64,000 nt of DNA from Trebouxia sp. TZW2008 (Eukaryota > Chlorophyta > Trebouxiophyceae > Trebouxiales > Trebouxiaceae), in NCBI GenBank assembly GCA_002118135.1, contig BDIU01000040.1:248001-312000 (forward strand), read 5' to 3'. Shown here piece by piece: positions 1-64,000 of the stretch. The notes under the pieces were generated by a model. That model worked only from the letters and a program-made list of their open reading frames with translations. It did not search any database and was not told the origin of the DNA. A program made the position numbers and the translations under genes. Positions within the stretch are counted from its first letter, which is position 1. Each line of letters begins with the position of its first letter.

Positions 1-3000
1 ATGTTCAAGGGCAGGGATGCAACTCATCAGGATCTTTGTTTGCAGAATTTGGCCTCAAGCGCATGCTACATTGGCATGCCAGAGTCACATAGATACCCTG
101 CCAGAAACATTGATCAGTGTTGCAAAAGGTAGAACGCTGCAGTCAGCTCAATTTACCAAAAGCTGATTAAAATGAGAATTGGCAGCAATTGAATTCCATC
201 AAGTTGCTGCCAAGAGTGACTGCAAGTCCAAGAGTGACTGCATTCATTTTGGACACCAGACACAATTGTTCTCCAGTGTGAAATGCAGCAGGATGAGAGG
301 ATCGCATGAATCATGAAGAGCATTGTCACTGAAGTAAAGGGGGCTAAAAACCTCTTAGACTTCAGAAAGACTGACACTTACTCGAGCTGACCTGTCTCCA
401 AGGATGAACTGCAACAAGGCAGCAAGGCTTGAAGACGCTCAACAACAACAGAAGTGTACGCAAGGCTGAGACACAGCGCAGGAATATGCACCTATTTTCC
501 AGCATAAAACATAGTAAGGCTGTAGGTCCTGCAGGTATGCTGTCCAAAAGAAGCGACGGCGAGCAGCACAATTCGCCCCTCTTCAGCAGCAGGTTGATTC
601 ACTCAATGTCTTGCATGTTGCAGGTGAAATCATTGCAAAGTCAACCTGTTCACCAGCATGAAACATAGCAGGGCAGTAGGGCCTGAGTGGATGGTGCCCA
701 GAAGCAGCACCCGGGAGCAGTACAGCTCGCCCCTTTTCAGCAGCAGGTCGCTTTGATCAATGCTGCCGAACAGACCTCAATGACTTTCATGTTGCCTGTG
801 GAAACATAGCAGAGCTGACCTGTTTCCCAGCATGAAGCGTAGCAGGGCCGTGGGACCTGAGTGGATGCTGCCAAGAAGCAGCACTGGCGAACAGTAAAGC
901 TCGCCCCTCTTCAGCAGCGGATTGAAGATGTTCTTGAAGGACTCTGCTTCTGTCAAGCCGCGCACGGACTCAGGACGAGCTGACAGGAACGCCAAATGTA
1001 CTCCTGCCTGTCAAGCCAGAAAGCAAGTTTGAGCAGTATTGCTTGAATTGAGTTGTCATGTACAACACGTATAGATGAATGAAAAGGATGTAACATAGAT
1101 ACTGACAACAGGAATGACAAGGACATGGTATCAATATGTCATGTCATTTGCCCTGCTTTGGTTCATGGCATCTGCAATGTCCCAACTGCTTTCCACACCA
1201 GGTTTGAGCCCATTAGGATTACCAAAAGTCTCCTTGAAATGTCAGATCCCATAGTCCTGGCACGGCGTATTCAGAAGTGTACAGGTTGCATGGCTGCATT
1301 CAGAGTGTCACAAGAATTTGCAAAAGTAGATCTTGAGATAGGCATGGAGAAGCGCTGTGACGTGCTTTATGCCTTGCTGGCCAGCAGAAAGATGTCAGAG
1401 ACGTACGACTTCTGAAGCACTGCTGATTTGTCATCCCTGTACGTGGTGCAGGCGGCGAGGCTCCTCCTCTCATCTTCTTCCTCCTCAATTGCTTTCTGGG
1501 TGGCAGCATCCCCAGACCCCTCATAAGGAGCCTGAGGGAACCCCAACAGAAAATGAAGTTGAATAGCCTCAAGGGGCTGGAGTGGGTCAGAGCAGTTGAC
1601 AACTTGTGTTTCTTGACAAAACATATTTTGCAACAAGTCTGTACCTGATGCAGGCGGCGAGGCTCCTCCTTCTCATCTTCTTCCTCCTCGACTGCTTTCT
1701 GGGTGGCAGCATCCCCCCCAGACCCCTCATAGGGAGCCTGAGGGCTGCTACAGATCAGCTGAATAGCCTCAAGCGGGTGCAGCACTGTTTGGCAGGCCTG
1801 ATTGAGGCCGCCCACAAAGACTCTTGATACAGTTGAAAGCGCCCCTTCACGGGTCTGCTTGTCTGGGAAAGCCCCTGCTATGCTGGTGGTCAACTGCCCT
1901 GCCCCTCGCCCTACAGCATCAGCACTGTCATCATTGTGTGCGCATACTTGCTGTTGAGATCACATGACTCTGCTGGGTGCATACAGACACAGTGCCACTG
2001 GTCAACTGCCATACAACAGATGGACAGAACTGAGGCGTCAAAGGCACACACAAGAGATGAACCTGTCCAGCACATGCCTACTTACAGATCTGCCCATTAG
2101 CATGCTAACCAGATGGGCATCAGGCAGAGAATGCTTCAGAGCCATGTTTGAAGGATAATGCTGTAGGGCATGGACAGCCAGCCATATGTGATTACATCTG
2201 AGCAAACATGCAGTGATGATGCAGCAACACGCAGCAACCATTGACTGAGCAATCATTGCATAATGATGCAGCACCATGCAGCTCATTTGCTGTACATTGC
2301 TGCACCCTGCACAATGCTTGCTCAACTGATGAGTACTGCATAGTGCTGCCTGTCACTCAATGCAGCGTCTGTTCATGCCAATGGTGAAGAAATGGACAAG
2401 CATTGCGTGCTGAGAACATTCTGGTACTCAATTCAACCCCTGAAAATGACTGCAGCATCATGCTAATGATGCAGCTACAATCAAGCACAATGTGATATAG
2501 CAGTCTCTTGACACAAGGACATTCAATGCATGCACATCAACATGTAAGGACAATGCAGTTGGGAACCAATTACTGCATTCTGGCTGCAGTGGTAGATCTG
2601 AGTCAGAGCAATAGGCTGCAAACAAGATCAATTGTCACATCAAGCTATCACTGTGATCTTCAGCTGATGGGCTCACCAAACTCTAGAAGCTGGACAACAC
2701 TGCTGCGGTCAGGCAGGCCAGATAGGCCCACCTCCTCCCCGGCTGTGGTGCCTAGGATGCCGCTGCCCTGCACCTCTTGCAGATTTGTTGCAGACCTGCA
2801 GCAAAGCAGCACATGCTGTTGGTATGGGTGTCATGCATTTCGGAAAAGGACGGAAACACTTTTGCGACCAAACCAAAGCTCGTCAGGTGATTGATGTAGA
2901 CCTGCACGTCCCGTAAGGTAACTCCTGGCGTGCAGCATTCTCCACATGCTGTTGCGATTTCCTCAGTAGTGGTTTTCAGGATGCTGATGCCTTGCACCTC

Positions 3001-8788: not shown

Positions 8789-11700
8789 TTGCGCGGTCTT
8801 CAGCATGTCGAGTTCAGGTTGCGCAGGCGGTCTAGAAACGCCGCGCGCTGTGGCGATCATTTGCGACCTGCTGGAGGCCTGTCAAAACAGCCTGCATCCA
8901 CAGCGACCCCTCATGACTTTCTTCACTCGGCAACGATATGCACGCTTGGCAAGGGCGCCAAGCGTAGACCTGGATTGTTCAAGCCCGTCAGTGCAGCGAC
9001 CACGTCAGCACCATCACAGACAAAGCAGCAACACAGCAGTCAGCCTACAGCGTTTGACTGGCGCAACCAATGGTATCCAGTCCATTTCTCTAGAGATTTG
9101 CCAGAGGGTCAACCTCAGCGTGTCTACATCTTTGACGAACCAGTTGTTCTGCTGAAGCGACCTCAAGGTCAGGGAGTTGTGGCCCTGAAAGACAGATGTC
9201 CACATCGTGCCGCTGCGCTGTCAGAAGGCCGCATGACACCAGACGGCCAGCTTCAGTGTGCCTACCATGGCTGGTCGTTTGATGGAGAGTCTGGCATATG
9301 CACAAATATCCCTCAGGTAATTGTAATCATGCTGATTGAATAGTTCATCCATTCATTCATGAACAATGTGTAAACATGCATTACATATCATGTTCCTGAC
9401 TTCAACCCCAAGCCTTTTGAACTGCAAGCATACAACATCAAGCCTGACACCTTACCCTCCTGGCTGCTTTCTCTTAGCATTTTGACCACCTTTCACGCTT
9501 CCATTACATGTCATTACTACCACCCCAGCATGTGTAGTGCACGAACCTTGTGCTGTCTGCAACCAGCTCTGGATTCAGAAGCTGCAGCGAGGACTGCAGT
9601 GAACACTGACACAAGCATTCAAGCTCTGACACTTGAGTGACTTTGCAGATCTCAGCTGGCCAGAAATTGACAGGCCGCACCTGTGCGACTGCACTGACAG
9701 CCTGTGAGAGGCAGGGCATGATTTGGGTGCACCCTGCTACTGGGTCTGTCCCTTCAACAGACACCATACCAGGTATCACAAACTGCGTTCAGTCTTTGCA
9801 TCATTTTACCCTCTAGATCAGCTGTTGCATCTGTTGTGATGATATTGCCCTTTCTGCTTGTGCCCGCCTGTTACCCAATGCAACTGCATTTTGAGCCTGT
9901 TAGAGGCAGGGCGTGGTTTGAGTGCACCCTGCTATTGATGCTGTCCCTTCAATGGACGCTGCATGCCTGTCATCTCTCATTCGCAGGCATGCTTTCCTCT
10001 TCCAAGGCCAAACGTGAGACAGCTATACAGTGAAGTGACTAGGATTCATTATGCAGTGCTGCCTGAGTTGGACAAGGAGGGATGGACCACTGACGACTTT
10101 GTGAGAGATATGCCAGTGGACTACACCCTTCTCATTGAGAACTTGCTGGATCCAGGTAAATACCGCGCAGCAATCGTACTGTTGGCACTTGATGCATCCT
10201 TCCATTCTACCCGTATCATTGTGAATTTGCTTGACCCAGGTGGGTCTGTTTGTAACAGTCAAAGTGTTGGCATTGAACGCATCCTTCAGATTGCACCCTT
10301 GTCTTTGCGGGCTTGCTTGACCCAGGTGGGTGTGTTTGTAGCAGTCATACTGGCATCACATACTGAATCAAGTGGACTTCACCCTCCTTATTGAGAATTT
10401 GCTTGTCCCCAGTAGCCTGTTGCAACAGTCACATCATCGCTCCTTTACAAATACAGTTGAATCTGAGCTTCAGGGAGAACTTGCTGAGCCCAGATCAAAT
10501 GCGTTGCATTGCTCGTACTGTCAATGTCTGATCAGGTCAATTGATAAGCATAGCTGGCACATTGATGCTGTCCGAAAGCCACTTAGCAGCTTGCATTTCA
10601 TGCAGCTCATTCGCCGTCGGCAGTGTTGTTGCAAGCACAACTCTTCAACGTGCATGTTGTCACCCTGCATGAGACAGTGCATTACTGTGTTGTAGACACA
10701 TGCAGCACGCCTTGCCATCCGGGGTAGCTGCCAGTGTTAAGGTACAGCATTGTACTATTGTGCGGTGTCTGATGAGTCATGCCTACTCACCAGGCCTACT
10801 CACCAGACTCTGCAATCAGTCTGCTGTCATTCCGTTTCAATCCAGAGCACATGCTATTAGTTTCCGTGTTAAAAGTTTGCAATGGCTCAGCAAGCAATAG
10901 CGCATATCACTTGCCGAGTCATTGCCGAATGTCAGCAGGGGAGTTGACGATGCTGCCCCGGTATGCTGAAACTGCTTTGCATATGTGGTACTGCGGCATT
11001 GGAAGCAACAGCACATGCCACTGTGTCAATGCACAGATACAAATCTGAGGATGTATTTCGGTCCCAACATCATGTGTGGTGATCGTATGCAGGTGATGGC
11101 CTGTATGCACATCAGATGCTAATGCTTGACAGCTATGCTGCCAGCCAAAATCTTTTCATGCGCATCACTGAGCACAGCGTCTCAATGTACAGATAGGTCT
11201 GATGATACATGATCCTTGCTGATGCACATGCTTTGCTTTGCATATCATGGCTTGCATGCACACCACACACCCTCGTTCGACAGCTACGTTGCCAGGCAAG
11301 ACTTTCCCATGCGCATCACAAGCACCGTACCTCAGACTCCTAAGAGGTGGTTGGCGAGGTAGCTGGCATTCTCAAGATGACAGGCAAAGACAAGCGGGCC
11401 AAGACCAAGCCTTTGCCCAGCAAGACAGTGTCATTAGCATCAGGCATCATCGTGTTGTTGGCATGCAGATCATGGCCTGTATGCACATCAGACACCCACC
11501 TTTGGCAGCTACGCTGCCAGACAGGATTTCCCCATGCGCATCACAGAGCACAGCACCCCAGACTCCTACAAGGTGCTTGGCGAGGTAGCTGGCGCACTCA
11601 AGATGACAAACAAAGACAGGCAGGCCACAAACCTGAACAGACCTGTTCAATGACGCTCCAATAACATGCTGTGTTTACTTGCAGATCATGGCTTGTATGC

Positions 11701-14534
11701 GCACCAGACACCCACCTTTGACAGCTACGCCGCTAGTCAGGATTTCCCTATGCGCATCACCGAGCACAGCACCCCAGACTCCTACAAGGTGGTTGGCGAG
11801 GTAGCTGGTGTACTCAAGATGACAGGCAAAGACAAGCAGGCCAAGACAAAACCCCTACCAGGCGAGAAAGTGTCTTCAGCTTCAGACATCAAAGCTAGGC
11901 TGGTGTTTCAGGCGCCGGCAATGGTGCGCTGGAGCAGGCATGACCAAGAAGGCAACACTAACTTCATCAGCGCTTTTTACCTTCTGCCCTTGGGCTTTGG
12001 CAGAACTCGATTCATGTCAAGGTATGTGTTGCTCTGCTCTGCATGCAAACAAGGTCTTGGGATATGTTTGTTGTGGAGCAGGCATGACCAAGAAGGCAAC
12101 ACCAACTTCATCAGCGCGTCTTACCTTTTGCCTTTTGGGCTTTGGCAGAATTAGATTCATGTCAAGGTATGTGGCGGTTTGCTCGGCACACACAACAGCC
12201 TTTGGGATACATTGTCATGGAGCAGACATGATCAGGAGGCCAATACCAATCTCATGAGCGCCGTGTACCTTCTGCCCTTGGGCTTTGGTACATTCAGGTT
12301 CATGTCAAGGTATGTGTTACTTTGTTCTCTGCACAGAATTCAGTTTGGGACATTTTGTGGTGGAGCAGGCATGATCAAGAGGGCAACACAAACTTCATCA
12401 GTGCATTTTACCTTTTACCATTGGGCTTTGGCAAGACTAGGTTCATGTCAAGGTATGTCTCAGTTCTCCCTGGTTAGCATTTCATGACCCTCAAAGCAAC
12501 ATCAATGTGTATTAGTGCTTTCTACCTTCCGCTGCTGGGCTGTGGCAAGACTAGGTTAATGTCAAGGTATGTCTTGGGCCTCCCTGATTTGCACTGCATG
12601 ACCATCCAAGCAACATCAATTGCATCAGTGCTAAATACCTTCTGCAGTTGGGCTTTGGCAAGACTAGATTCATGCCGAGGTATGTTTGCTTCCTCTCTGA
12701 CTTGCGCTGCATGATGCGCTGGAGCATGCATGATTATACGGGCAACACTCACTTAATCAGTGCCTTCACCTGTTGCAGTCGGGCCTTGGCAAGACTAGGT
12801 TCCTGTCAAGTTGCGTGTCATTCCTCTTCAATTTGCACTGCAGTGTGTGATGGAGTAGACATGACCAAGAGGGCCACATCTACTTCATCAGCGCCTACTA
12901 CCTGCTGCCACTGGCTTTTGGCAAGGCTGTATTCATGTCAAGGTTGGCATAGCCCTCCTGGTCATGCAGTGCAAATCAGGGTGGGTTGATACAGAACCAC
13001 CCTGGTTTGCACTGCATGACCAGAAGGGCTATGCCAACTTCATCAAGGCCGTTTAGCTCCTGCCGTTGTGCTTGGGCAAGACCAGCTTAGATCCATGTCA
13101 AGGTCTGTGTCAATCCACCTTGATGTAGAGACCATGTTGGTGACACAGGGCGACTTGATGCTTGTTGGTCTGTAGGCATGTGCAAAGCCTGGCACCCAAG
13201 ATCCACCCTCCCTGGTGGCTTGTGAGCATTACCCCCAAATGCTTCCTAGACCATGTGAGGACCCTACTCCCAATATGGAAAGAGCAATGCTTGCTGGTCT
13301 GCAGGTACGTGCGAAGCCTAGCACCCAACATCCACCCTCCCCGCTGGCTAGTCAGCATCGCTCTGAACCGCTTCCTAGATCAAGACACCTACCTGCTCGC
13401 CACTCAGCAGTCCGTCACTCTATCCAATGAGCTACGAGACATTGCAGACAAGCAGTCATCACAGCAGCAGTCAAAGCAGCAGCTGCAGTCAGATGTGAGC
13501 CACGCACAGGCGTCAGACAGACAGGACCCTGAAGGCAATGACGAATTGGCAAGCCTGACAGAAGCTGCTCCAGCAGGTGCTCCCATGGCGCGCAGAAGCT
13601 GGTATTGTCATAGGTCCCCTACTGACAATATACTGGTGGCCAGTGGCAAATGGCTTGACAAGGCTGTGCCGGATATGCCAAATAGATATCAAGGGTTGCT
13701 TCAGTCAGCGTTGCAAGGTACAGTACGCTCAGTCACATCTGTTGCTGCTGTGCATATCTGTTGTGAAGTGCACCTGTTGCCCGTAATATGCCCAGTCACA
13801 GTTGTTGCAGCTGTGCATGTCTGTTGAGCAAGTGCACCGATCGACCCTGATCTGGCTTGATTACCAACATGTACTAACAGCAAGCTAGGAGCGCTGTCTT
13901 GGTTCAAGATGATGTCTTGCGTGCAATCTGCTTGCTCTGGTAATGAAGCATCAGCAGCAGCGTTGCATGACCCTTGCAGAGTTTGACTGTTGCTTGCTGC
14001 ATTGACCTACCCTTGTCCTACAAGTTCAAGCGACAAACAGCTCCTGATCAAACTTCAAATGGAAAGCAAAACAAGAAAATCCACTCCTTTCGATAAGCTC
14101 CCAATTGCAAGCAAAGTGAATGAACTGTTGGCTTGGACACTGCAGGTTCAGCCCCATTGGTTGCACCAGGACGAAGAGAAGATGTCTTAGACAGGTTCTC
14201 ATGTCACACCGCAATCTGTCCAGACAGCATGGGCTTCTACAACAATGTCACTGCTTTGTCCAAAGCGGCGCAGCTCAGTACAGCAGTAGCAGCAGTCATT
14301 GGGTTGTGGTACAGTTTGCAAGCTTCGACAGGACAGGTCCCTCTTGAGGCAAAGTCTGTGTTTGCCATCGCTGCGTCTTTTCTGGGTTCAGCAGGGACGT
14401 TTCAGATAACGCAGTGGCTAATTGGTCAGTTTAGGTATGTGTACAAGCCCAGTGACCAGCAGAAGGATTTGGCAAAGCTGACAAACATCACCCAGGATCT
14501 GCAGTCAGAGCCAACCGCTGGTTACCGGCCTTGA
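8789..14534 (+). CDS. Pheophorbide a oxygenase-like Rieske [2Fe-2S] oxygenase
   Basis: Exons: ~8789-9316, 9649-9772, 10057-10155, 11686-12021, 13305-13717 and 14146-14534 (stop 14532-14534); all internal phases match. Exon 1 carries DWRNQWYPVHFSRDLPEG and the Rieske ligands in KDRCPHRAAAL and LQCAYHGWSFDGESG. Joining 10155 to 11686 creates ENLLDPDHGLYAHQ, which restores the mononuclear-iron motif D-x2-H-x4-H, strong support for that splice. The C-terminus has a hydrophobic stretch (AAVIGLWYSL region). HTAICPDS resembles the family HTxxCxxC motif with the second Cys replaced by Ser. PAO/TIC55/PTC52-type enzymes are plastid membrane oxygenases of chlorophyll metabolism or protein import; which subtype this is cannot be settled. 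The start is unresolved: the Rieske frame opens after a stop at 8783-8785 without an in-frame ATG, while an ATG at 8805 is in another frame. Confidence 0.85.
9890..9975 (+). repeat. Decayed copy of 3' part of gene B exon 2
   Basis: It matches 9685-9772 (gagaggcagggcatgatttg and onward) with scattered changes. It lies downstream of the intact exon. Confidence 0.85.
10205..10490 (+). repeat. Four decayed copies of the 3' end of gene B exon 3
   Basis: Copies at about 10205-10231, 10306-10327, 10371-10412 and 10463-10486 repeat the sequence encoding LLIENLLDP. The first two retain a following GT donor. All are downstream of the exon that ends at 10155. Confidence 0.8.
11090..11645 (+). repeat. 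Three copies of acceptor plus 5' part of gene B exon 4
   Basis: Copies begin near 11095, 11246 and 11469 and repeat the exon starting at 11686 (ITEHSTPDSYKVVGEVAG region). The copy closest to the intact exon is the best preserved. Frame breaks occur in each. Confidence 0.92.
12075..13105 (+). repeat. Eight decayed copies of the 3' part of gene B exon 4
   Basis: Units of about 100-150 bp at ~12081, 12215, 12355, 12480, 12598, 12718, 12845 and 13005 repeat the sequence encoding NTNFISAFYLLPLGFG and R-F-M-S-R. Most end in tcatgtcaaggtatgt-like donors. They lie between exon 4 (ends 12021) and exon 5 (starts 13305). Confidence 0.92.
13166..13258 (+). repeat. Decayed copy of 5' part of gene B exon 5
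   Basis: It repeats the acceptor and the stretch encoding VRSLAPNIHPPRWLVSI of the exon starting at 13305. It lies upstream of it. Confidence 0.88.
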
Positions 14535-27275: not shown

Positions 27276-27334
<59 letters not shown>

Positions 27335-33978: not shown

Positions 33979-34381
33979 ATCAACTGGCTGACGGCATGGC
34001 CAATCGGTGGGCAGATCGCCGGGTGATCTTGCTGAACCAGCCTGGCAGCCTCGGTGGAATCATCGCATGCAAGCTGATGAGGAAGAAGGGCAAATGGCAT
34101 CATTTTGACGCTGTGATAGGCAGCGTATCATCGACACATACATGGGCATATCATCCCTAACTAAAGTTTACATGTTCAGAAGCCCCATCTTCACCATTAA
34201 AGATGTCAGCACACGTATAATTGAATCACACGTATAATTGCAACTTGCTACCAAGCCCAGGACTGATTGAGTTTGTTGAACTTCACCAGCAGCCACACAC
34301 AACACCAAGGACTGCCATTCAAAAACAGCACAAGCAGGAACGTCCGAATTGCTATCATACACGATCAAGGTAGCGCAACAG
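33979..34381. other. Short spacer between gene F end and gene E start
   Basis: It holds the presumed gene E promoter and gene F 3'UTR, with a TGTAAA at 34167-34172 (minus) and a short direct duplication of cacgtataattg at ~34210-34240. An open frame at 33882-34160 (+) has no known motif. Confidence 0.6.
34167..34172 (-). terminator. Candidate polyadenylation signal of gene F (TGTAAA on minus)
   Basis: It lies about 210 bp downstream of the gene F stop at 34382-34384. Confidence 0.45.
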
Positions 34382-35365: not shown

Positions 35366-35407
<42 letters not shown>

Positions 35408-47400: not shown

Positions 47401-50400
47401 GTCAGGGAGGCCCTGGCGGCGGCTGCCCAGCAGGGCATCTGCCCCATCGCCCTTTGCCCCTGGGAGGTATGACTCATCTTCAGGGCAAGAGGTGGACCTA
47501 CCCACATTCCAAGGGCAGCTCCAGGCTCAGCCCTCGCAGCTGCAGAGGCAGCCCTCTCAAGAGCCCCTGCACCCCAATGGCCCATCCATTAGTAGGGCTG
47601 ATGATGACATGCCTGATGCATCTCCATGGTTTAGTCAGCCAGATGCCATGAGGGAAGCTGCCCTACTGCTGAATGTGCAGCTGGCACAGGTTGACAAGCA
47701 GGTGTTGGAGCACATTGTGCCTCTTTGTGGGCATGGCACTGGCAGTGCGCCTGAGCAATCAGACAGCCATATCATTGCCCAGCAGGTCTGCCTTCTCTGA
47801 AAGTTTTTTGACAGCATGCCCAATTAAAGTCACAATGGGGAGCAGTCATGAAGCCTGTTTGCTGGGAGACTCATGCTATCGCTCATGTTGCAATGCATGC
47901 CATGAGTTAGCTGCTAGGGGGCGCTACTGCTATGCATGCGACAGCATGAAAAACTCTGTAACTTCTTGCTGATGCAGGACATCCAGTGTTCCTCTGCATT
48001 TCTTGTATAGCTCCTCTTTGACATGACTGCTTTGGTCATCAAATACTTTGTCCTTGCATTGAACTGACCTTTCTCAGAGACAACACTGCAGTCAGAATGC
48101 AGTGATCTGTTTCCAGTTGCATTGTCCTTACATCAAGAATGCCCTTACCCTGAGTGTCCTTACACAAAGGAGTTACTGTATAAGGTAGATTCTCAAACAA
48201 ATATTGCTGGTGCAGGTCAGCCATTGCGAGGACCAACTGAGGCAGCTGGAGATTGGCAGCCAGCAGCTATTGCAGGCTTCTGATGAGCAGGTGGGTATTG
48301 TAGCTCTTGGTCACATGTTTTGCTGCACAGTAATCAGAGAATCTTGGGTTTGCTCCACTTTACACGCCATTTGCTGCTTACACGCCATCCACAAAGCATC
48401 CTCATCACTTGCAAAAGCGAAGCAAACTCTATGTTGCCAAATTGCATAACCTTGTCATATTCGTGGTGGCGTTGCTGTCCTGCTGTATGGGTGAGCCAGC
48501 CACACATGCAGAGCTTGATGCAGCCTGGGCCCTTGGCATCAGTGTTAGCTTGGCACTCTTTAAACTGGCTGCTTGCCAAGAACAGTCAGCTTGCCATTAG
48601 CATCTAATGCTTCTTCTGTACCTTGTGTGTCACCAAACGTGACAAATTTTCTTCACGCAATGTGCTGGTTGCAGGTAGCAGCAATGAGGGCAGGCAGTGA
48701 TGAGGAGTGCTCACAAGGTCAGACAGGCAACCACAGCATCAGCATGCAACTGCTTTCAAGTGCTTGTGAGCTGTGTCATTTGTGCTTAGAGACTCAATGC
48801 AAACTGGGTTCTATCACAGCTGCTCAAGCTGCATCAGTGCAAAACAAAAAGCATGCCTGCTTGCATGAATAATCATAGCAAACCTGTTGTTTTTGGGGGT
48901 ACCTCTGAGAGCTGTTACTTGCCTAAGCATGCCTCATGCAGAAGGCATGTATCCACTGAGCACTGTTTCTGCGTTGCCTCTTGTGTACTGCTCAAGTCAA
49001 CAACGATGAGTTGCATCTGGTTCACTGCCCCAACTGCAAATGCTCTGTGTCACTGAATGTTTGATAGAAAGAATGACACTGGCTGCAATGCAGACACTTG
49101 TGATTGTGCCAGAGCCAGCCTAATGCAGGCATACCCTTGCATTGCAGCCATTTCATTGCGGCAGGCTCATTTGTTTATGCAAACAGCATTGGAATAATGG
49201 CCCAGACTGTATTGCAGCCTTTGCTTTTGCTGGTGCAGCAGTGCTCTCAAGCCAGGAAGTTCAATAGGATGTCTTCCTTACCTCAGAGAGTGAAGATTGT
49301 TGCTTGATGGATGCAAACAGCGTCATTGACTATATTGCAGGCGCTGCTTCTGCTGGAAGGCCTGCTTGGAAGCGCAAGGTGGTGCGTCGTATGTCAGACG
49401 CCAGCTCAAGCAAGTACTTGCTATATGACACTTTGGAGTGTGGACCGCCTTGGGGCTACCCTCACGGGGGTGCTGAGGTGCTGCTGGTAGCGAAAGCCCT
49501 AGATGACGCGCAAGCCAAGGACACCAACATTGACATCCACGCCATGTTTGATCGCACTGAGGTGAGAGCTTCAAGACAAACTCAAGCCTGATTCATTAGC
49601 ACAGCTGTAAATAAAAAGCATGGCATGCTGTTGCCTTGACGCTGCTTGTGTCATTTCAAAGCAGTTCACTTTGGCATACAGGTGGCGGTGACTGTGCTGT
49701 GGCCATGGTCTTGCTCTGTACTGGCCACAAATCAAGTTTCTGGCACACTGAATCAATCCTAGCCAATCCTGCAGTTTTGTGTGTTCATATGTTGTGGCTG
49801 GAGCATCATGAATGCAGGTGGCTGTGACTGAGCTATGGTCAGGTGTGATGCGCTTCATAGCGCCTGCTCATGCAATTGACCAAGCAAGGCTGTGCATCAC
49901 TTCGGGCGATGGCCGCCTCGCATCATGCAGTGCCTTTGTTGTTGCAAGTCACTGCAGCATTGCTGACCTGTGCAGGTGCAGGTGGGAGTGACTGCATTGA
50001 GGGCAGTACATTGTTCTGCTGCTGCCCTGGAAGCCGTGCTATTCGTGCCCTTGCAAGAGACTGCAGACATGCTGAGATTCTTCCATGCTGAGTTTCTTCC
50101 ATGCAGGTGGCTGTGACAGAGCTATATGGCCAGGAGTGGTGCATTGTCCTGCTCCCAGAGCAAGCTTCTGGGACCCTTGACAAACGCAAGACTGCAGTTT
50201 GCTGTGTTCATGTGTTATGGCATTGCAAGGAGCTGCAGCATTATGAGTGCAGGTGCCAGTGACTGAGCTATGGCCAGGAGTAATGCGCTGTATAGCGCCT
50301 GCGCATGCAATTGGCGCAGTAAGGCTGTGCCTCACTTTGGGCGATGGCCGGCCTTGCAGCAAGGCCATTACCTTTGAGTACAAGTCTGGAAGCGCCTCAA

Positions 50401-53400
50401 GGTCTTGCAATGCCAGCAGGTACAGCATCAGCCTCCATATGTCAATCAGACGTGATTGCATGACAGAGTTCAAACATGCGAGACCATTACCTTTGAGTAC
50501 TCACCTGGAAACGTCTCAAGGTCTTGCAATGCCAGCAGATACAGCATCAGCCTCAGGAGTGCTCGCTGCTTCTGTATGCACCTGGCAGGGTTGTGGGATA
50601 GCACGTGCAGGATAGCAATCACGAAGGTCTGAGCTGCCGCGGTTTGATCAGATTTGTGTAAATGATGCAGCCAGCATGTGCCAGGCACTGCACAAGATAT
50701 GGCATGCTCTGGTGAACTTATACCTGCGCCAGGTGTACAGCGGCTTTTCGCTGTGATCAAAGCAGCACAGCCTGTCATTCTTGCAATGTAGGACTGGTTG
50801 TAGCTTGGCTGCTACATGCACAAGACAAAAGCCATGATGCTGTCTAGTTGAGAGTGCTCATGCTTTTTGGGCTGTGTTTCTACTCCTTTCTGCGGCTTCT
50901 AAAATTTTGTCAGCAATTTGGGTGCCAACTGCAGGCCTGGCGTGGGCTTGTCAGACAAGGAGCTGCAGCTGCAGTTGCTGCAAGCTTTGTTGCAGAGCCA
51001 GCCTGATACAGCCAACAGCAGCAGCAATACCAGGAAACCCAACATGTCTGTGCCTACAAGCGTGACTACCCCAAAGCTGGGACCCATGCAGGGGCTGCTT
51101 CTGGGTGAAGCGCCAGCTGCTGCCCTAAATAGGAGTCAGCTCATGCAGGCGCTGTTCAGGCTTGAGCTCAACACACAGACACCTCAGGTCTGTCCGTGCT
51201 AGGCTGCCTTCTGACAGATTTACACTGAGGCAGTTGATTGCGTCTACATCTGTCTGAGTTTCACAGCCTGCCTGGCAAGCGTATTGACTGAAAGCGTTGT
51301 GGAATGCTCACGAGTGTGGGTTCATGTGTAGAAATGCTGGTGTAAAATCTTTTCCACGTCAAGTGCATGCCACCATGAGTACTGCTTCTTCTTACCTGAT
51401 GCTCTTTCAGGCCGTTTGAATGCGGCAATGCTCTGTCACTCATCACATAGTACTGCCTCGCCTACAGCAATGTGTAGAGCAGCAAATCAACTGCTGCAAG
51501 GTCGCATTTGCTGCCTGCTGTCATCACTGTTGATGCACAGGCATAGCTGTTGCAGACACCTGACTAGACTGCAGGGAATCTGAATTACATCTGAAGCAGT
51601 TCCAAAAAGAATCAACAGCATCACTGACGTTGCTTCTTGTAAAAAGTCAATATGCTTAAATAGAGACAGGCAACTTGACCCTGACAGCTGACTGTGGTAG
51701 CACAAGAGTCGTAGTTAAAATGTCATTGTGAAGTGCTCAAGCGCCCATAGTGTCCTGCATGGTGCTGCGCTGACACCGCTGTGTCATAGAAGCACAAAGT
51801 TGTTGTGCTTTTGTCTATTGCACAGGGTGTCCTACTACATGGGCCAGATCTTGGGCGGCCAGTGGGGTACACCCTGGCAGCCCTGGCCAATCAAGCACTG
51901 CTCAATACGATCATCAACTGTATCGATGTAAAGGTTTTTCTTTTGCACAGGGTCAGCTGCTGCATGGCCCAGATTCGGGGCAGCCAGTGGGGTACCCGCC
52001 AGCCGCCCAAGCCAACCCAGCCTTGCTCAACAGCATATCAGACCAGGGCCTGGCTCTCCTTCACCTGGCAGCCGGTTTGGGATATGACTGGGCATGCAAT
52101 GCACTCATCACCAATGGCGCAGATGTGCAGCTTGCGGTGAGTCCCCTGGCCTGCGTGTCAAGTGAGCTGCATCTGCATTCTAAAAGACAGATATGCTGTG
52201 TTGCATGCGTTTGTTCATGGACATGTTTGCAGGATGCTACACGCTACGTTGGCTTGGGTCATATTGTTTGGGCAAGTCAAAACATCAATCCTTCTAGGTC
52301 AAGCTGGCAAAATTTGGATACATATTCTCTTGTCTGACTTGGAATAGTTGAACATCAGGCGTCCTTCCCGTGACGCTCAGGGTAAGCCAGCCTGGCAAGA
52401 CAAAGCCAGCCTGAGACAACTGGTGATGAGGGCCATGACACAAACAAGCCATCAGACTGCAAGAGACATGCATGTATGGGAGGTGGTCACACCATGTCTG
52501 AGAATGCAATGAAAGATACAGATTATAAACTAAAAGTGCCTGCTGCAGGATGCTTGGGGTCTAACAGCCCTACACTGGGCTGCCAACAGGGGTCACGAGG
52601 CCTGTATAGTGGCCCTCATTACCAAGGGTTCAGACCCTACCTGTCTGACCCATAGCCAGACCACAGAATCTGGGACAGCTGCTGATCTAGCCAGCTCAGC
52701 AGGCCATGTGGGCATTGCAGCGTTCCTGGCGGAGGTCTTGCTGGTTCATGTGCTTGCCAAGGCACAGACAGGCAAACCGCCTTCAGATTTTGTGTCGTTA
52801 CTAGGTATATAGCGAAAGCTTGGACTTATACAGACATCTGCAAACTTGTGAGCCACCATAGCAATCACCATTTACAATGCTCAATGCGCAATGCGTGGAG
52901 TTTGAGAGTGTGAGTCACTGACTCATACAGTGCAAATTGTGGAATACGCAATGCATCGGATAATGCGCAGTGAACAAGTATCTTGCAGTATCATTCACTA
53001 GTATGGTGGTTCACTGGTTCATTGCTTTACAAACCAGTCGGCTACATGTGAATTGCGAGACATGGCAGACCAGGCGCACCTGTTGAGAGCACATGCAGTT
53101 GTGTGAATCTGGAAGTTTGAGACATTTGGACTGGGGGTCTGTTTTCAATGCGCTTGCTCAGGTGTGCACAATGTTGCATTCTGGCACTGTGATTTACAGG
53201 TCTGCACAGTCTTTGCAGATTTCTGCTGGTCTTACCAAATGCATGACCTGTAAAGTCAGATAGCATCATTGTTGGTCATCAGTATTGACTGTCATGGAAA
53301 GTTGCAACCTGTTCATGCAGCCTTGGTGTCACATGCCTGCTGCCTTGTAAGCACAGTCTGATCCAGCAGGCAACTTGGCAGACAACTATGTACAAAGACC

Positions 53401-55506
53401 ATTCCACCTTCCATGTTCAGTATCAATGGCTTAGCTTAGTACAGGACTGAATGTGGCAGAGACAGTTGATTGCTCTAGTACATGCCTAGCTGGCCCTGCT
53501 GAGCCCTGCTAGCATGCGTTTTCATATGCATTGAATGAATGAACAATCTAGCCTTACATTGATCTGTGGTTGCTGCAGATTGGCAACAAGCTCAAAACAA
53601 CTCAGTGTCAGCTGCGCACACAGAGCCCACTCTGCAGCGCAAACGGTATCGAATAGACCCTACTCACGCTGATGAGCGCCTCCTCTCCTCCCCCCTAGCT
53701 ACCCACCATGACCCTCCACCCCCCGCATCTCAGCTCATCTCTTCTGCTCGTGAGGCCTCAGCACCTAGCATCAGCATTGTTGTCAGAAGACCTACAGCTC
53801 AGCCGCCACAAGGTGAAGCCCTAGGCCCTCATGAGGATAGTCACCACAGCTCCAGTCACTTCAGCAGAGGCAGCTTTCAGCATAGCCCCATGGGGAGGGC
53901 AGTTGAGGAGCCGACGGCCACAGCTGTGGTGGCTGCCGCGAAACAAGCGGTGGTTATGCTGGAGCAGCAGTGGCCAGCGCAGGCGCAGCCTGGCAGTACA
54001 GACAAGAGACAAGAGCAGAGGTAGACTTCTTGCTGCAGGATTGTCTGCATGATGGCTGTCATTCATTAGTGTATTGTCAGTAGCAGCCTTTGGCTGTTGC
54101 AAGCGAGAATCTTCCTTGTACTATTGCATGACAGGGTTCATTGCACCAAGGCTTTTTGGAAACACCTTCCTCTGATGTCACATACAGCAGCATCATGATG
54201 TTTGCACGAACATGGGAGCCAAAGCTGCACGCTTGACGATGATGCGATGCAGCAAATTTTGGTTGACTACCTTGTGACGCCCATCACAACCCATTCTGCA
54301 AAAGCTGTACATGCAGCTAGCATTGCATGGGCAAATGGACTATCACCACCATAATAATACCACTGCATCCTCAGTCATCATCCTTGGTCAGCATGATCTT
54401 ATGTGTGCAGCAGTGAGGGCGCATTCCGGCGGCTGGCAGATTCCAGCAAGATGTGGAGCACTCTGCAGAAGATTGCTGAGGCTGAACTGGCTGACAGCAC
54501 CAATCAGGCAGCTGACTCCATAACTTTACGTTTCCTGAGCCTTGCGCCTCGAATTGCTCAACTCAACGAAGCTGTACGTCATGGCCTCATGAGCAGTGGG
54601 CATGACGCCACAGCTGCAGCAGAAGCTGACACAGCAGCAGAGGCGGCAGGTGGGCAGGCAGGGGATGAGATTGTGGCAGATGGGTCTCCGTCTGAGGCCC
54701 CTACAATCGGTCTGGGCAGGTGAGTGTAGTGTTCTGTCATATTTGTACATGAAGGTACTGTTCGAGTGTGTTTATGGGCAGTCACAATTTCAAATTGCTT
54801 TGCTGTGAAAGGATGAAAAGCCTGTCCTGCCAGGTTGTTCTGGTTAAAGTTTTGACTTTGCTTTACGTTTGCTGCAATGATCGGCTTGACAACAGAATCT
54901 GGCATGCTCCACACAGAAGGGTCTAATCTGTCGTGTTGACACTCGCCATGCCTTGACAAATCTGTCTTGAACCAACAGAACGCCACATCAATCTCCTTTT
55001 ATCACACACAATGAAGACATCGAGCTCCAGCTTTTCTGCTGGCGCATTATTTGCAAGCATGTTGCTCACTGCCATGCAGGTACCAACAAGCTGCCAAGCA
55101 GAAGTCAGTCAAGTTTGCAGAAGATGGAAGTCCCTCAAAGGCTGCAGCTTTCGGTCCAGCACATCTAAAGCTGGTGAGAGTCTTCATATGTCACCATCTT
55201 TTGTCTGTTTCACCTTCCGTCAGCTCGTTGGTCAGAGGCAGCCCGTTTGGGCAACATTGCATTTTCTGTCATCATAGGCTGTCCTGTTGCACTCAAAGAG
55301 CCTTGAGCTGCCTCACCATACATTCTGGCCCTGTCTGTCCTCAGAAAGGCTCGTTGCATGTTATGATGCAGGCTGTACAGCACATTGAAGCAATGGTGGG
55401 AAATGCAGAAGCATGTGCCCAATATGATCGGCTGGTCAAAGCTGTGAAGGGCAGCAGCCTGCGTAACACCAGCCGCCGTGTCATGCCTGCGCTACACAGC
55501 TACTAG
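44499..55506 (+). CDS. CAMTA: Calmodulin-binding transcription activator (CAMTA)
   Basis: Sixteen exons, all in phase, about 1530 residues: 44499-44691, 44803-44918, 45022-45084, 45362-45883, 46295-47785, 48216-48290, 48675-48717, 49341-49561, 50253-50419, 50935-51187, 51951-52136, 52549-52804, 53579-54020, 54411-54719, 55080-55173, 55345-55506. Exons 1-4 encode the CG-1 DNA-binding domain (REPPCQPPGGSLFLFDRKAV, FFRKDNHNWRKKADGKTV, MLNCYYAHADRSDGLQ, RRCYWLLESEDDIVLVHYLN). Exon 5 is a long Gln/Ser/Pro-rich linker. Exons 8-9 form the IPT/TIG domain (PPWGYPHGGAEVLLVA, GVMRCIAPAHAIGAVRLCL). Exons 11-12 hold ankyrin repeats (GLALLHLAAGLGYDWACNAL, GLTALHWAANRGHEACIVAL). The last exon has AVQHIEAMVGNAEACAQYDR, like the plant CAMTA C-terminus. 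No canonical IQ motif is evident, so calmodulin binding is uncertain. Exon 2 uses a GC donor (44919). Confidence 0.95.
45236..45300 (+). repeat. Decayed copy of acceptor plus start of CAMTA exon 4
   Basis: The segment gctgcagaggcg followed by a diverged tail repeats the acceptor and first bases of exon 45362-45883, upstream of it. Confidence 0.5.
48048..48184. repeat. Dispersed repeat family R, copy 3
   Basis: It lies in a CAMTA intron, just upstream of exon 6, in the same orientation as the copies at 19189 and 41438. Confidence 0.8.
49680..50200 (+). repeat. Four copies of acceptor plus 5' part of CAMTA exon 9
   Basis: Copies begin near 49680, 49816, 49976 and 50106 and repeat the start of exon 50253-50419 (VTELWPGVMRCIAPAHAI region). 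The 49816 copy is long, about 120 bp. All lie upstream of the intact exon. Confidence 0.9.
50483..50540 (+). repeat. Copy of the 3' end of CAMTA exon 9
   Basis: It repeats the end of the exon (attacctttgagtac and caaggtcttgcaatgccagc). The donor GT is changed to AT, so this copy cannot be used as a normal donor. Confidence 0.9.
51826..51931 (+). repeat. Copy of 5' part of CAMTA exon 11, possibly an alternative exon
   Basis: It reads GVLLHGPDLGRPVGYTLAAL against GQLLHGPDSGQPVGYPPAAQ in the intact exon. It is 105 bp, open and in phase on both sides, and is followed by a weak donor (gttttt). Confidence 0.8.
52345..52425. repeat. Dispersed repeat family S, copy 2
   Basis: It resembles 36190-36255 and lies in the CAMTA intron between exons 11 and 12. 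Confidence 0.6.
52805..53578. other. Large CAMTA intron between exons 12 and 13
   Basis: No exon copy or gene is apparent. It contains loosely repeated caatgcgcaatgcg-type words near 52880-52970. Confidence 0.6.
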
Positions 55507-57465: not shown

Positions 57466-57699
57466 ACCCCCTCGCGTTGTCCAATGCCCCTCAGATCATG
57501 TCTGTCAAGTGCTCGCCGATGTAGTGTGGTGGTTGCTTCGCAGCCCATCCTGCAGCAGGCACAACTGGCGTATTGACGGCTTCTTGCGTCGCTCAACAAG
57601 CACTCTGTCAATTGAAGTATTACATGAGACATGTCTGTCACAAGCAATGATCGCCTCCCACCACTACACCTGTGATCAGTCCAACCCATGGCCACACTA

Positions 57700-60600
57700 G
57701 CTCAAGTGCCAGACATATTCCTGTTCAGTCAGCTCAAACTGCTAGAAGAAGTCAGCAAGCCATTATGGATCTACAGGTGATGTACCATCTGAAGCGCAGC
57801 TCTCAATATCCTGCTGCCTTGCAAGGGGCTTGTTGACACAAATCAGGCTTCTGGCACAGTTGTTCATCAAGGCGAAACATATGGGCAAACCGAGCAGCGC
57901 TGCAGCTGTTCGGCAAAAACATTCAGCAATTCATTGCCTTGGACTATACCAGTCCTACAGCAGGCACTGTGTCCAAAGAAGACTTTGCTGCCTTCAACGC
58001 TTTGAACACCCTTGTGCATGACGAGGTAGAGGTGAGCATTCTGCCATGAAACCCAAGCTGTACTTCCTCAAAACTACCCTTCAGCAAGCAATACTGTCTG
58101 TAAGCATGTACATCAGCAGCAGCAACAGCAGCAGAGAAAGCTGCAACTTCCTTGTTTGTTGTGTCCGCTTCTTACAATGCTCCCCCCTGAAAACACTATG
58201 CATGTTCAAGCATGTACACATGTACAACTTTGACTATCCTGCCCTCATTGTGTCACGCCCTGCATGGTCTCATGATGCAGGCAGGATGAAGACTTGCCAT
58301 GCTGCATTGTTGCTTTGCTCCTGTGCTTGAGCTGCGTCTGTGCCATCACCAAGCAATAACAGCTTTTTCAAGGTTTTGTGTGTGCTTTCTGATGCATTGT
58401 AAGATGAAGACAAGTCGCAGCAAACCTAGATCAAGACAAGGTGCAGCAAACAAAGCACTCAATGAAGCACTGTGTGAATGCGCTGTGTTAAGTGCGTGTG
58501 TGTGTGTAAACAGGTGGGACATCGAGAGCAGGTGCTTGAGGGATCTGGTTGGAAGATGCTTCCTGGCCTGTTTCCTTCTGGCAAGCCCCTAGAGCTGGAT
58601 GTCAGCTACAAGGTGATCAAGTTGTTCTGATCTCCCTGAGCCACACCTGTTCCCACTGCGCAACTTGCATTGAGCAGACGCAAACGCATTGACGCCTGTT
58701 TGCCACTGGCAAGCCCCTATAGCTGGGACGTCAGCTACAAGGTGATCAAGTTGTCCTGATGTCCTTGAGCAATACCTGTCTCCACTGCGCAACTTGCATT
58801 GAGCAGATGCAGACATGTTGAGGCCCGATGCTCAGTGAAGGATGGCGCACGCAGACCTTGCTCTGGTTGTGCGTGCTGGCCTTGGTGCCTCGTGTGCTGC
58901 ACATGAAAGTGTGATTTGCTTGAGCAGCGCAGATATTGGCGCATGTCGTGCCTGGTGAAGGCATGGCTTCTAGGCTCCTGCTAAGAGTCTAAGCACTGCT
59001 GCAAACACTCAGCTCATGGCACCTCCAAGCAATGCTAGCTTCTTACAAGGCTTTTTCATGCTTTCTGATGCATGTATGAACAGTTTCTTGAAGTGCAATA
59101 CTTTTGTTGCAGGCTATCAGTCTAATGTCAGCTCATGGGGGCACTGTGGAGTGTCATTGCCTCATGCAAGTCATCAGAGGGGCTGAATCAGTTGCCCTGC
59201 CCTATGGTGATGACATTCACAACGTACTGCGGCAGTACAGGGCTCAATGCAGCACCACTAGCAAGCCTGGCCCTGAAACACCTGGGACTGACAGTGAGTG
59301 TTTCAACTGCAACACTGTCCCTCTAGAAGCTGTTGATGCAGCAGAAAAAGCTGACATGAACCGGTGCACACGTTGGATTGCTGCATGTGTGGACCAAGCT
59401 CTGAGTTATGCAACAGCATTGCAGCATCGCCGTTTATGCTGCAGCTTAGGGGTCTAGTCCCCAATCAAGTGAATATTCTCGTACAGCCTTACTGCATTGG
59501 CGTGGTGCATGTAGACAAGTGTACGCCAGAAGCACCCCTTCATTGGGTGGAATGCTCAGATGTTCACAGTATAAGAGAAGTGCCAAAGGGCATGCAGCTG
59601 AGAGCGTGACAGAGACTTTTTTTTAGGTCTAAGACTAGCACTCAAAGTGTTATCATGAAATGCAGGTGAGACGCCTGTGCGGCGGATGCTGGGAGTGCTG
59701 CAGGCCATCATGAATGGACAGCAGCCAGACATGAGGGCTGTGCACCGCTTGCATGAGCTCATTGTCTCAGGAGACCTGAACGGCGATGTAAATTCCTTCT
59801 GCCTGTCCCAGAAACTGCTTGGTGTAGACTGCATCTTGAACTCGTATTGTGCATGTAGCTTCGTTGTTTTCTTGGCATATGGCGTAGCTAGGTGCATCCA
59901 GCTCAAGACTGCTGTATGTGTCTTGTAGCACATTTACATGCATGGGTGCAGTGCTGCTGCTTGCCACCTGCTGGAACACATACTACAGTATTGCTGTGTT
60001 TGTAACAAGACCCCTGACTGTCTTGCTGATATTGCAGCGAAGTATACAAGAGATCATCACCCAGGACAATGACCTGGACAGCGATGTGGGCATGAACTTG
60101 ATACAGCTCCTTGGAGGGTCCAACGATTTCTATGGCACTAAGCGGCGCAGGTCTAGCTGCACTTCTGCCACCAGCGATGATAGCATTCTCAGTGGCAGGT
60201 ACGAAAGAAAGAGACAAGCAGAAGCAGTCATTGCATGAGACATGTCTTTGTGTTGTGGCTGAAGCTCTGCTGACCATGTCAACAGTGTCTGTCTGGTATA
60301 CAGTCGTTGCTATCAGGTCAGGTGTGTATCTGTGCGCAAGCATGCATGGCATTTTTAATGACAGACAATTACGGCGCTGTATAGTTTGGGTTGTCAATCT
60401 TTGTCTAACAGAACAGCGTTTCCGGGTATACACACAGTGCTGCATTGTCAGGAAGAGCATGCAGATGTTATGCTGGTTGCCCTGCAGCCATGTTGCTGAA
60501 GCTTCTGCTGTGTGCTGTGCAGGTTGAAGGATGCACTGAGCTATGTGGACAGTCCTATCAGGTGTGACAGGCTCTCAAGCTTGCATGGCTGCACATTCAA

Positions 60601-63600
60601 CCTGCATCTGTTTGCTCCCTCGCTCGCTCGCTAGCTCACCCGCCAACTCTTTCGCCGACTCACCCACGCACTGGCTGGCTTGCTCGCTCAGTCAGTCCGT
60701 CACACATGCGTGTACGCATGTGTGCATGCGTTTGCTCTATAATTAGCTTGTGTGTCGTTGTCGACATGCATGCCAGCATACTGTGCAAAGCTGTTTAGTT
60801 GCATATGCAAGCAATCAGCTGCGCTCAGGCACTCCAAAACAGGCAGAGACATGCTTGAAGTGTGTAGCTACTCTTCACGTACTTATGGTTACTGCAGGCT
60901 GTCAGACGTCTCAGAAGATGAAGAGGCTGGAGGCGAGCTGACTCACTTGCCCAACATAGCGACAGCGCCCATTCCAGAAGTGGAAGCAGTGCTCAGGACA
61001 GCGGATCATTGGCACTTTGACGCTTTCAAATTGGCTGAGGCATCTCAGGGGTACCCCCTAAGCACCCTGGGGTTCTGGCTCATTCAACAGAACAGGGTTG
61101 CCAAGGAATTCAGTGAGTCACTCCAACTTTACATTACACTTCTGGCGCTGGGCTTAGGATCTGCCCACCACAATACATACACTCAAGAATCAAGCAGCTA
61201 TCATGCACGACTGTTCAAAAGTGGAATCTGCAGAACAGGCGAAGCCACTGTTATCCAAATTGCGCCTTGCATCAGTCACTAGCCCGCTGCTAATCCCTAC
61301 CTGGTGCCTTGCACATAACATGTCACCTGGCACATTCCAAAACACTGCAGCACTGCACCCTATAGCATCACGCAATGTCTTATAATACAGCGTGACATGA
61401 TGTAATTTGACGCCAAATGATGCATCAGGCTGATGACTGACACAAAATGCATGCTGCTGTAACTTCCGCTGCTTGCGCTCAATCACCTGCACCTCACCTG
61501 TCACAAGTATTCGTTGCTGGCCTGCTCTGCAGCTCAGGCAAAGCCTTCAACAGCATTTATGGCTCAAGGTAGCTGCTGATCATGCAGAGTTGGAACCCAG
61601 CAAGCTTGCAACCTAGAGCTTGGGGATCTTGGTCTTACAGACGTGGAACTGAGCAAGACAACGCCATTAGTATTATAGCTTGTAGTGACTTTGAGAAACT
61701 CATGTGCTGATCACACAAGTGTCCGGTCCTGCAGAGTTAGAGCCCAGCAAGCTGGCAAAGTTCCTAAGGCGGGTGGAAGATGGCTACAATGACACGCCCT
61801 ACCACAGCAAATCCCACGCTGCAGATGTGCTACAAAGCATGCACACCATTCTGACGCTGGGCGGGCTGGCCAGCCGCATGGATGATGAACTTGTGATGCT
61901 GGCAGGTGCGTGGGCAGCTGCTGACAACAGCATCCAGCTTGTTTCATATGCATGTCAGTCTGTGTGCAATGTCTGTGTGCATGTGTAGCAATCCTAATGC
62001 TGGGAGGGCTAGCTACCTGCAAGGACAACGAGCTTGTCACGCTGGCTGGTGAGTCGGTCATGACTTGCATGAGCATACAGCTCGTCTCATGTGCATGCAT
62101 TTCTGTGGATCCTGGCAATCCTTCTGTAGGCTCACCTTTGCAAGGATCCATGGATACATGCAGGTTTCCATGCATGTTGCATGAGTTTCCTGCAAGCTCA
62201 TTTGAGGCAGCCAATGACTCTTGTTGAAAATTACTGTGATCCATTCAATGGATTCTTTGAGGTTGCATATTATAACACCTTTGTTGATATGCTGTTGCCA
62301 CTTATGCTTTAATGTTATCAACCTAGCATGGTGTATGTCGGCGCTTTTCTGCATTGTGCACGCAGGGTGCTTGTCTGCCATTTGCAATGTGTCGAACACA
62401 AAAAGCTTCATGATCATTACCCAATAACAACCAGCCGGTCATTTTGTGTTTCTGACTTGCAGGGTATTTGTCTGCCATCTGTCACGATCTTGACCACAAA
62501 GGCTTGAACAACGACTTCCTGATCAAGACCAGCAACCCGCTAGCCATTCAGTACAATGATCTGTCCCCTTTGGAGAATCACCACCTGGCGCAGTCTTTCC
62601 GCCTGCTCAATAGGAGCGATTGCGGCCTGTTGCGGCACCTTCCCAAAGACAAACAGGTGCTTGACTTCCATCAAGACTTGATAGGCTATTGCAAGACAAG
62701 TGACAAAATTTTGCATTTTTCCAAGTGAGAGACCTCAAAACAGCAAAACATGTCAACAATCCCCTGACATGTTACCTACATTTGCACTCAGGGCTCTCTG
62801 TGCACTATTCTGGGTGCAACATGATGACACTTGCCAAGCAGGCGCAGTCCACTGTCCAAGAGTTTCTACAAGAAGTTGTGGCACTGCTTGTGTTTCCATG
62901 CATGCTGTGAAACATGGCATGGCTTCGACAAATCTTGCAACCTTACTTTTGCCAGCAATGATCATGACAAGAATTCACCTGCAAGTCAGTAAACATGCGT
63001 TCCAGCACCCACTTAGTGTCATGATGCATATGAGCAAGACAGTGATGACGCCGTGGGTCCTAAACCTGAAGCCTGCTTGAAAGGCCAGAATACAATCAGA
63101 CTTGTCATGGCAGAGTCAGCTGCGGAAGCTGATGATAGACATGGTGCTGGGCACAGAAATGAAGCAGCACTGCGCCGTCAGTTTACCTTACACTAAAGAC
63201 AGATCTATGGTATAGGCTCGATTGCGGAAGCTAATGATTGATATGGTGCTGGGCACAGACATGAAGCAGCACTGCGCCATCATCTCGCGCTTCCAGACTG
63301 TGCTACAAGTCAAGCTGCACTGCCGATAATGCTAGTGCCAGTGCCAGCACCAATGAGGCCCTGAGGTTCAACATTCAAGGAAATGTTCTTTAAATTGATA
63401 TGTCATGGTGTGTTATGACAGGCACGGCTGCGGAAGCTGATGATCGATATGGTGCTGGGCACAGACATGAAGCAGCACTGCGCCATCATCTCGCGCTTCC
63501 AGACGGTGCTGCAAGTCAAGCTGCACAGCCGCATGGTGAGCACTGCCGGCGGTGCTAGTGCTGGAACCAGCACCAATGAAGCCCTGGGCATCAAGTTTGA

Positions 63601-64000
63601 AGACCCTGCAGACCGCTCCATGCTGCTTCAGGTCAGTTTTCACAATGCAAATCTGTTGTTGGCGCCTCTTGATGCCTCGATGCAGTCGTTTCGCTTTGAT
63701 GAGCACTGCCGGTGGTACTAGTGCTGGATCCGGCACCAATGAGGCCCTGGGCATCAAGTTTGAGGACCCTGCAGACCGCTCAATGCTTCTTCAGGTCAGT
63801 TGGCCATCCTCTTGAATTGATTTTGCTAAGTGTCAAGATTGGTTGTACACAAAGGCTGTTCAACCAAAGTAGCCTCAGGCATGTCATCAGCAGGCTTCAG
63901 TGAACATGTGCATGTTTGCATTCTTCATTGCACTCTTGGGCGACAACCATGACCTTTGCAATGCAGTGCTGGTTTCGAGCCATTGCAGACACTTGTACAC
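57700..64000 (+). CDS. 3',5'-cyclic nucleotide phosphodiesterase (PDEase class I), 3' end outside window
   Basis: Exons in phase: one ending at 57776, then 57906-58031, 58514-58612, 59113-59293, 59666-59787, 60038-60198, 60523-60561, 60898-61112, 61533-61568, 61735-61905, 62463-62656 and 63422-63631. The catalytic core is clear: DTPYHSKSHAADVLQSMH (family YHNxxHAxDV, here Ser for Asn), CHDLDHKGLNNDF (the HDxxHxGxxN metal site), LSPLENHHLAQSFRLL and MIDMVLGTDMKQHCAI. The remaining metal-binding Asp and substrate-binding Gln region lies beyond 64000. The N-terminal ~300 residues, including PVRRMLGVLQAIMNGQQPD, match no domain I can name. These enzymes hydrolyse cAMP or cGMP; which one cannot be told here. 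The start is unresolved: the exon ending at 57776 is open from about 57657 without ATG, and a possible first exon ATG at 57330 does not connect cleanly. Confidence 0.93.
58690..58745 (+). repeat. Decayed copy of 3' part of the gene H exon 58514-58612
   Basis: It repeats the stretch encoding GKPLELDVSYK with a stop introduced, followed by the same donor, downstream of the intact exon. Confidence 0.85.
61585..61615 (+). repeat. Copy of 5' edge of the gene H exon 61735-61905
   Basis: The stretch tgcagagttggaacccagca repeats the acceptor and first codons (ELEPSKLA), upstream of the intact exon. Confidence 0.8.
61990..62055 (+). repeat. Copy of 3' part of the gene H exon 61735-61905
   Basis: It repeats the LTLGGLA and DDELVMLAG coding region with its donor, downstream of the intact exon. 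Confidence 0.85.
62362..62405 (+). repeat. Copy of 5' edge of the gene H exon 62463-62656
   Basis: The stretch gcagggtgcttgtctgccat resembles the acceptor and start of the HD-motif exon, upstream of it. Confidence 0.75.
63105..63340 (+). repeat. Two copies of 5' part of the gene H exon 63422-63631
   Basis: Copies begin near 63110 and 63216 and repeat the stretch encoding RLRKLMIDMVLGT and onward. Both lie upstream of the intact exon and the second is nearly identical over about 100 bp before a stop. Confidence 0.93.
63700..63795 (+). repeat. Copy of 3' part of the gene H exon 63422-63631
   Basis: It repeats the stretch encoding NEALGIKFEDPADRSMLLQ with the same gtcagtt donor, downstream of the intact exon and with very few differences. 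Confidence 0.95.

Follow-up and report, generated by a model that had tools for sequence, protein, structure and literature searches.

Gao and Lynch, and Zhuo et al. in 2007, are said to have linked changes in introns to intragenic duplication. The closest described systems include the 'mirages' of lancelets, which two reports present as tandem repeats across exon-intron boundaries in a few genes, with both boundaries affected, splice signals retained and splicing apparently normal (PMC3087553, PMC3902484). In potato, an RdRp gene is described as a case of intron gain by tandem duplication (PMC4974935).

The copies of exon edges that we found in a green alga resemble the mirages in several respects: the unit spans the exon-intron boundary (in 40 of our 48 copies the alignment includes the splice dinucleotide, which is unaligned in the other eight), acceptor and donor edges are both copied (among 30 copied edges, 16 have upstream and 14 have downstream copies), the unit is of similar size (150-160 bp in the lancelet globin), and the copies lie beside the intact exon in the intron, many of them keeping AG or GT. 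They differ in belonging to a green alga and in affecting 11 of 26 sampled genes; unlike the complete tandem units of lancelets, they show, at most testable edges, similarity limited to exon plus a few nucleotides. With the potato gene they share tandem duplication across an intron-exon boundary and the inheritance of splice signals, but there a new intron was created, whereas here extra copies lie in an existing one (PMC4974935). An earlier note on this DNA had proposed a distinct mode of intron growth, if the arrays were genome-wide; exon-boundary duplication had already been described in lancelets. The present analysis contributes the occurrence in many genes sampled from a green alga, the polarity count, the test for neutral drift and a class of sharp-edged copies; no report of exon-edge copies in a green alga was found in the open-licence literature, as represented mostly by titles and the beginnings of abstracts.

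The window, that is, the whole stretch analysed, comprises positions 248001-312000 of contig C40, 64,000 nt in all, from an assembly of 68.5 Mb in 527 contigs. Exons were defined with a purpose-written spliced protein-to-DNA aligner, using full-length Trebouxia proteins for the PAO-like (Rieske) gene (P0122 of Trebouxia sp. C0006, 76% identity) and the cyclic-nucleotide phosphodiesterase gene (P0212 of Trebouxia sp. C0004, 78%). The sample was extended with 30 kinase stretches from a Pfam PF00069 search, aligned with splicing to a kinase profile of 120 homologues plus the query. The first of these were the best of the match list and a later set was picked only by its kinase match; five were prioritised for several or overlapping domain hits, and C130 and C143 because their domain hits suggested duplicates (C143, or L026, was dropped; C130, or L025, contributes two edges). 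After removal of weak models (L015, L021, L026), of L005-L007 with one or two exons, of the C-terminal exons of L024 and of exons below 30 bp, 26 genes with 137 exons and 111 introns remained; splice sites scoring below -1 were not taken as junctions. The homology-defined exons have regular and strong splice signals (donors AG|GTRAG, acceptors TGCAG). One kinase of the genome shares 98% identity with one database entry; the value is 85% for another that bears the label Astpho2, which we take to be Asterochloris, and 79% for a protein of Trebouxia sp. C0009. Together with the PAO-like and phosphodiesterase matches, this points to a green alga akin to Trebouxia. The other genes of the window were modelled solely by a home-made gene finder, without homology. 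As this program recovered only 53-62 of 74 homology introns, although these were partly its own training set, the polarity counts were made without it.

Among the 48 exon-edge copies in the 26 genes, none lies inside a supported exon. Every acceptor copy is upstream of its intact exon (21/21) and every donor copy downstream (19/19), and the copies of five PAO-like and four phosphodiesterase exon edges all follow this polarity (Table 1). In both of these genes the proteins of relatives align once with each exon. Copies were present in 24 of the 111 introns, about one in five. The earlier note had called the polarity strict throughout seven genes of the window; its rule held throughout the 26 genes retained with homology models, and its 'always' extends to window genes modelled only by the gene finder. 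Its further proposal that duplications inside exons are purged agrees with our results: BLAST found no repeat within the 117 supported exons of at least 60 bp, and a test of shifts of 15-65 found no internal repeat in any of the 137, its single weak donor-side pair, in L025, being downstream. An early pass over 24 genes had given apparent counter-examples, namely one acceptor copy downstream together with whole-exon and own-exon pairs in L026, where a weakly supported exon lies inside an array, and one donor copy upstream in L024 (6220-6338), where there are two near-identical exon candidates; these were dropped because the choice of exon was unreliable.

Table 1. Exon-edge copies, intact exons and related repeats in three genes of the window.
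Gene	Positions	Strand	Feature	Basis
PAO-like	9649-9772	+	Exon; 3' part copied downstream at 9879-9952, donor lost	Spliced alignment to C0006 P0122
PAO-like	10057-10155	+	Exon; 3' edge and donor copied in tandem downstream (10209-10347, period 84)	Spliced alignment and self-comparison
PAO-like	11068-11684	+	5' part of exon 11685-12021 copied three times in succession upstream, acceptor position included	Self-comparison
PAO-like	11685-12021	+	Intact exon, copies on either side	Spliced alignment
PAO-like	12074-13112	+	Eight downstream copies of 3' part of exon 11685-12021; GT kept in 7/8	Self-comparison
PAO-like	13158-13253	+	5' part of exon 13305-13717 and its acceptor copied upstream; similarity stops 18 nt into the intron	Self-comparison
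PAO-like	13305-13717	+	Intact exon	Spliced alignment
PAO-like	13724-13838	+	Repeat pair wholly within an intron	Self-comparison
Class-3 lipase-like	28156-29565	-	Eight units of about 178 bp: seven copies upstream (transcription sense) of the unit that runs into coding sequence	Pfam PF01764; exon by gene finder only
Phosphodiesterase	58514-58612	+	Exon; 3' edge and intron start fully copied in tandem at 58694-58825	Spliced alignment and self-comparison
Phosphodiesterase	61580-61611	+	5' edge of exon 61735-61905 copied upstream over a short length, retaining AG	Spliced alignment
Phosphodiesterase	63103-63379	+	5' part of exon 63422-63631 copied upstream at 63103-63180 and at 63214-63325, the latter followed by another piece at 63330-63379	Spliced alignment and comparison
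Phosphodiesterase	63422-63631	+	Intact exon	Spliced alignment to Trebouxia sp. C0004 P0212
Phosphodiesterase	63697-63801	+	3' part and donor of exon 63422-63631 copied downstream	Spliced alignment and comparison

Such a polarity could be read as the sign of a directional mechanism. We rejected this reading, as the mirror position of a copy was mostly blocked: only 5 of the 26 nearest copies, and 16 of the total of 42, had a mirror position without a supported exon (25 genes, the phosphodiesterase not yet included), and elsewhere this position overlapped an exon or ran off the stretch. No free mirror place was occupied, the copies within one array not being independent. The polarity is mainly a matter of exclusion, as local duplication and purifying selection would produce it.

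In the DNA compared, local repeats are mostly direct. Self-BLAST detected 29 local direct-repeat arrays in the window, in line with the at least 25 previously noticed; this search is blind to shifts below 62 bp and missed a 57-bp pair. Near pairs above 45 bits in the window, by self-comparison, were direct in 81 cases and inverted in 9, and local self-BLAST pairs in 294 kb were direct in 301 and inverted in 19, the nearest copies being mostly 84-272 bp apart. The arrays are not confined to junctions: some occupy the interior of introns, others regions where no gene was predicted. In 100 introns we counted 32 arrays, 24 of them at exon edges (13+11) and 8 within the intron only, a ratio of 24:8 against a geometric expectation of 0.89:1 (p=0.002); this excess is perhaps partly due to the conservation of exons. 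Arrays that span no exon edge include these eight, the intronic pair at 13724-13838 and a repeat inside a predicted exon at 18281-18707. By gene-finder label, repeats cover 12.7% of unpredicted sequence, 13.3% of introns and 15.9% of CDS, a weak comparison because copies receive the CDS label and missed exons the intergenic one. An example of a missed exon labelled intergenic is 23991-24195, whose reverse strand resembles an exon edge by eye.

Introns with copies are longer than those without (median 717 against 248 bp, p=1e-8), and a separate comparison showed the same trend. Of the distinct mode of intron growth proposed earlier, the association with longer introns stands, while the polarity, largely geometry plus purifying selection, is no proof of it by itself. 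That the process is continuing was not borne out: identity exceeds 95% in only 1 of the 301 direct pairs, a figure that collapse in the assembly could also give. Since such pairs are nearly absent, the assembly may have collapsed young repeats, and one might suspect the arrays themselves to be artefacts of assembly; this is extremely improbable, as the exon parts of the copies share 72-95% identity with the intact exon, carry numerous private differences and are found on several contigs. The sole array of period above 50 bp with identity above 95% in one repeat listing of the window consists of two 57-bp copies at 39302-39415 (98% match).

The copies themselves look like dead sequence in free drift, to judge from their differences. 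Copy and intact exon differ at codon positions 1, 2 and 3 in the proportion 171:140:302, close to the 1:1:2 of a dead copy compared with a live exon whose silent sites are free. In-frame stops number 10 in 1210 copy codons, with 15.1 expected, and indels are frameshifting in 16 cases and in frame in 3. AG is retained in 19 of 21 copies and GT in 15 of 19, where neutral decay would leave roughly 77% (a hand calculation from the divergence data); the splice dinucleotides are neither clearly purged nor clearly kept, and their persistence is about that of neutral decay. It is very unlikely that the copies are in use as alternative exons or regulated splice sites. Many do offer plausible sites, scoring no less than the intact site minus 1 bit in 10 of 18 acceptors and 8 of 17 donors, and all seven lipase copies are without a stop over about 50 codons each; still, the prevalence of frameshifting indels (16/19), a frameshifting gap in 2 of the 7 lipase copies and the near-neutral codon-position pattern and stops speak against such use.

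Differences among the copies outside the PAO-like array are nearly even over the codon positions (89:83:103, a hand sum), and within it they lean to the third position (213:178:340); the lipase copies also differ preferentially at third positions. In these two genes the copies may have been made or refreshed at different times, and some lipase copies may once have been coding or may have been copied recently.

Other features of the window were noted on the way. The repeat at 18281-18707 (minus strand) is contained in a single predicted exon; its shifts, 99 and 363 bp, are both multiples of three, and it is apparently an in-frame duplication tolerated in the coding sequence of a low-complexity protein. 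A predicted gene at 44787-55506 (plus strand) has a CG-1 domain (PF03859) and what we take to be ankyrin-like sequence, and resembles a CAMTA transcription factor. Long open frames at 32553-34059 (minus strand) read, in our estimation, like a ferric reductase or NADPH oxidase; a 408-residue frame among them had no Pfam match.

The earlier note had attributed the arrays to tandem duplication of segments spanning a splice junction. Local direct duplications that span the junction are indeed present, but at most testable edges the intron flank is unduplicated or unrecognisable. Classified per edge by its nearest copy, so that a multi-copy array can hold both kinds, the intron part of the unit was recognisable at 7 of 22 testable edges and unrecognisable at 15 (8 and 14 with one correction, as the nearer copy of the PAO-like exon 10057-10155 forms a complete tandem unit). 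Some edges, then, are true tandem units, in true tandem register at these same 7 (corrected, 8) edges. At the 15 unrecognised edges the aligned intron measured 0-24 nt in 13 cases and 35 and 53 nt in the other two. In simulated tandem duplications with equal divergence, 95-98% of flanks stayed recognisable; when introns evolved twice as fast, 78% did so at the lower indel rate and 53% at the higher, and when they evolved three times as fast, 40% and 25%. Tandem duplication followed by decay would need introns evolving about 2-3.5 times faster than the copies inside them. A BLAST-based version gave poorly aligned flanks at 60% of 25 observed edges, from a hand-entered list, against 7% of 325 simulated ones. 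Plain tandem duplication with decay was therefore rejected as a full account. Template switching, gene conversion after an old tandem duplication and a faster loss of intron sequence are possible explanations.

It is possible, and we say so tentatively, that most copies arose by short-range template switching, in which an edge with a few intron nucleotides was pasted at a distance of some tens of bases up to about 130 bp, so that unique DNA separates copy and source. In support of this idea, the flank had no recognisable relation to the source flank at the 15 (corrected, 14) unrecognised edges, and the spacer between copy and source had no relative within the locus, by BLAST, in 14 of 15 cases, the exception being L017, in a duplicated dimer. 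These 15 spacer cases share 13 members with the unrecognised edges; of the other two, one is untestable and one (L023, 2692, donor side) is recognised. The clearest case of a sharp-edged copy is that of exon 63422-63631, whose nearer upstream copy reaches 93% identity over 110 bp with only 2 nt of intron aligned; behind it comes another piece of the exon, at 78%. Along the copies mismatches are evenly distributed (p<0.05 in 3 of 43, Fisher p=0.39), as expected from one copying event. Template switching leaves unexplained, however, the frequent position of the outer end at 0-24 nt past the splice site and the strong excess of direct over inverted pairs, and in 6 of 15 cases the outer flanks had matches at other places of the locus, some of them other copies of the array.

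The same edges might instead descend from old tandem duplications in which repeated gene conversion from the intact exon refreshed the exon part while the intron part decayed, an account that we hold doubtful. The similarity stops about where the constraint on the intact gene stops, the exon part is about as large as the remainder of the period, and a lancelet study describes concerted evolution of mirages (PMC3087553). Against it, there is no general patchiness along the copies; one phosphodiesterase copy has a perfect run of 59 bases (p=0.017), but low values number only three among 43, this one included. Given this negative test, recent patchy gene conversion was rejected as a general signal.

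Taken together, we consider it probable that local direct duplication, with survival only where the intact exon is still spliced, accounts for the arrays, the dead copies drifting and going along with longer introns. Short stretches of DNA would be repeatedly duplicated nearby in direct orientation, and a duplicate carrying an exon edge would persist only if the intact exon were spliced as before. The layout expected to survive has 5'-edge copies upstream and 3'-edge copies downstream, because the intact exon occupies the other side, and the survivors would be dead, drifting copies with splice signals that the cell must ignore. Direct orientation, polarity, near-neutral drift and longer introns were all observed. 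We infer that selection clears the places where copies are not tolerated, that the intact edge is the one used in splicing and that the greater length is due to the duplicates.

Beside tandem duplication, an extra copying process limited to exon edges, which would carry only the edges and the nucleotides of the splice site into the adjacent intron, seems unlikely. If it were true, exon boundaries would be recognisable at the DNA level, and the process would supply decoy sites for the spliceosome to ignore. Gene finders will call such copies as exons, as ours did in the PAO-like and lipase genes, which is a warning for annotation. If genome-wide, local duplication at exon edges would be one way in which introns lengthen in an algal lineage, and it would place dead copies of real splice sites beside live ones, and these live and dead pairs would be natural experiments on how the spliceosome chooses among near-identical sites and on selection against decoys.
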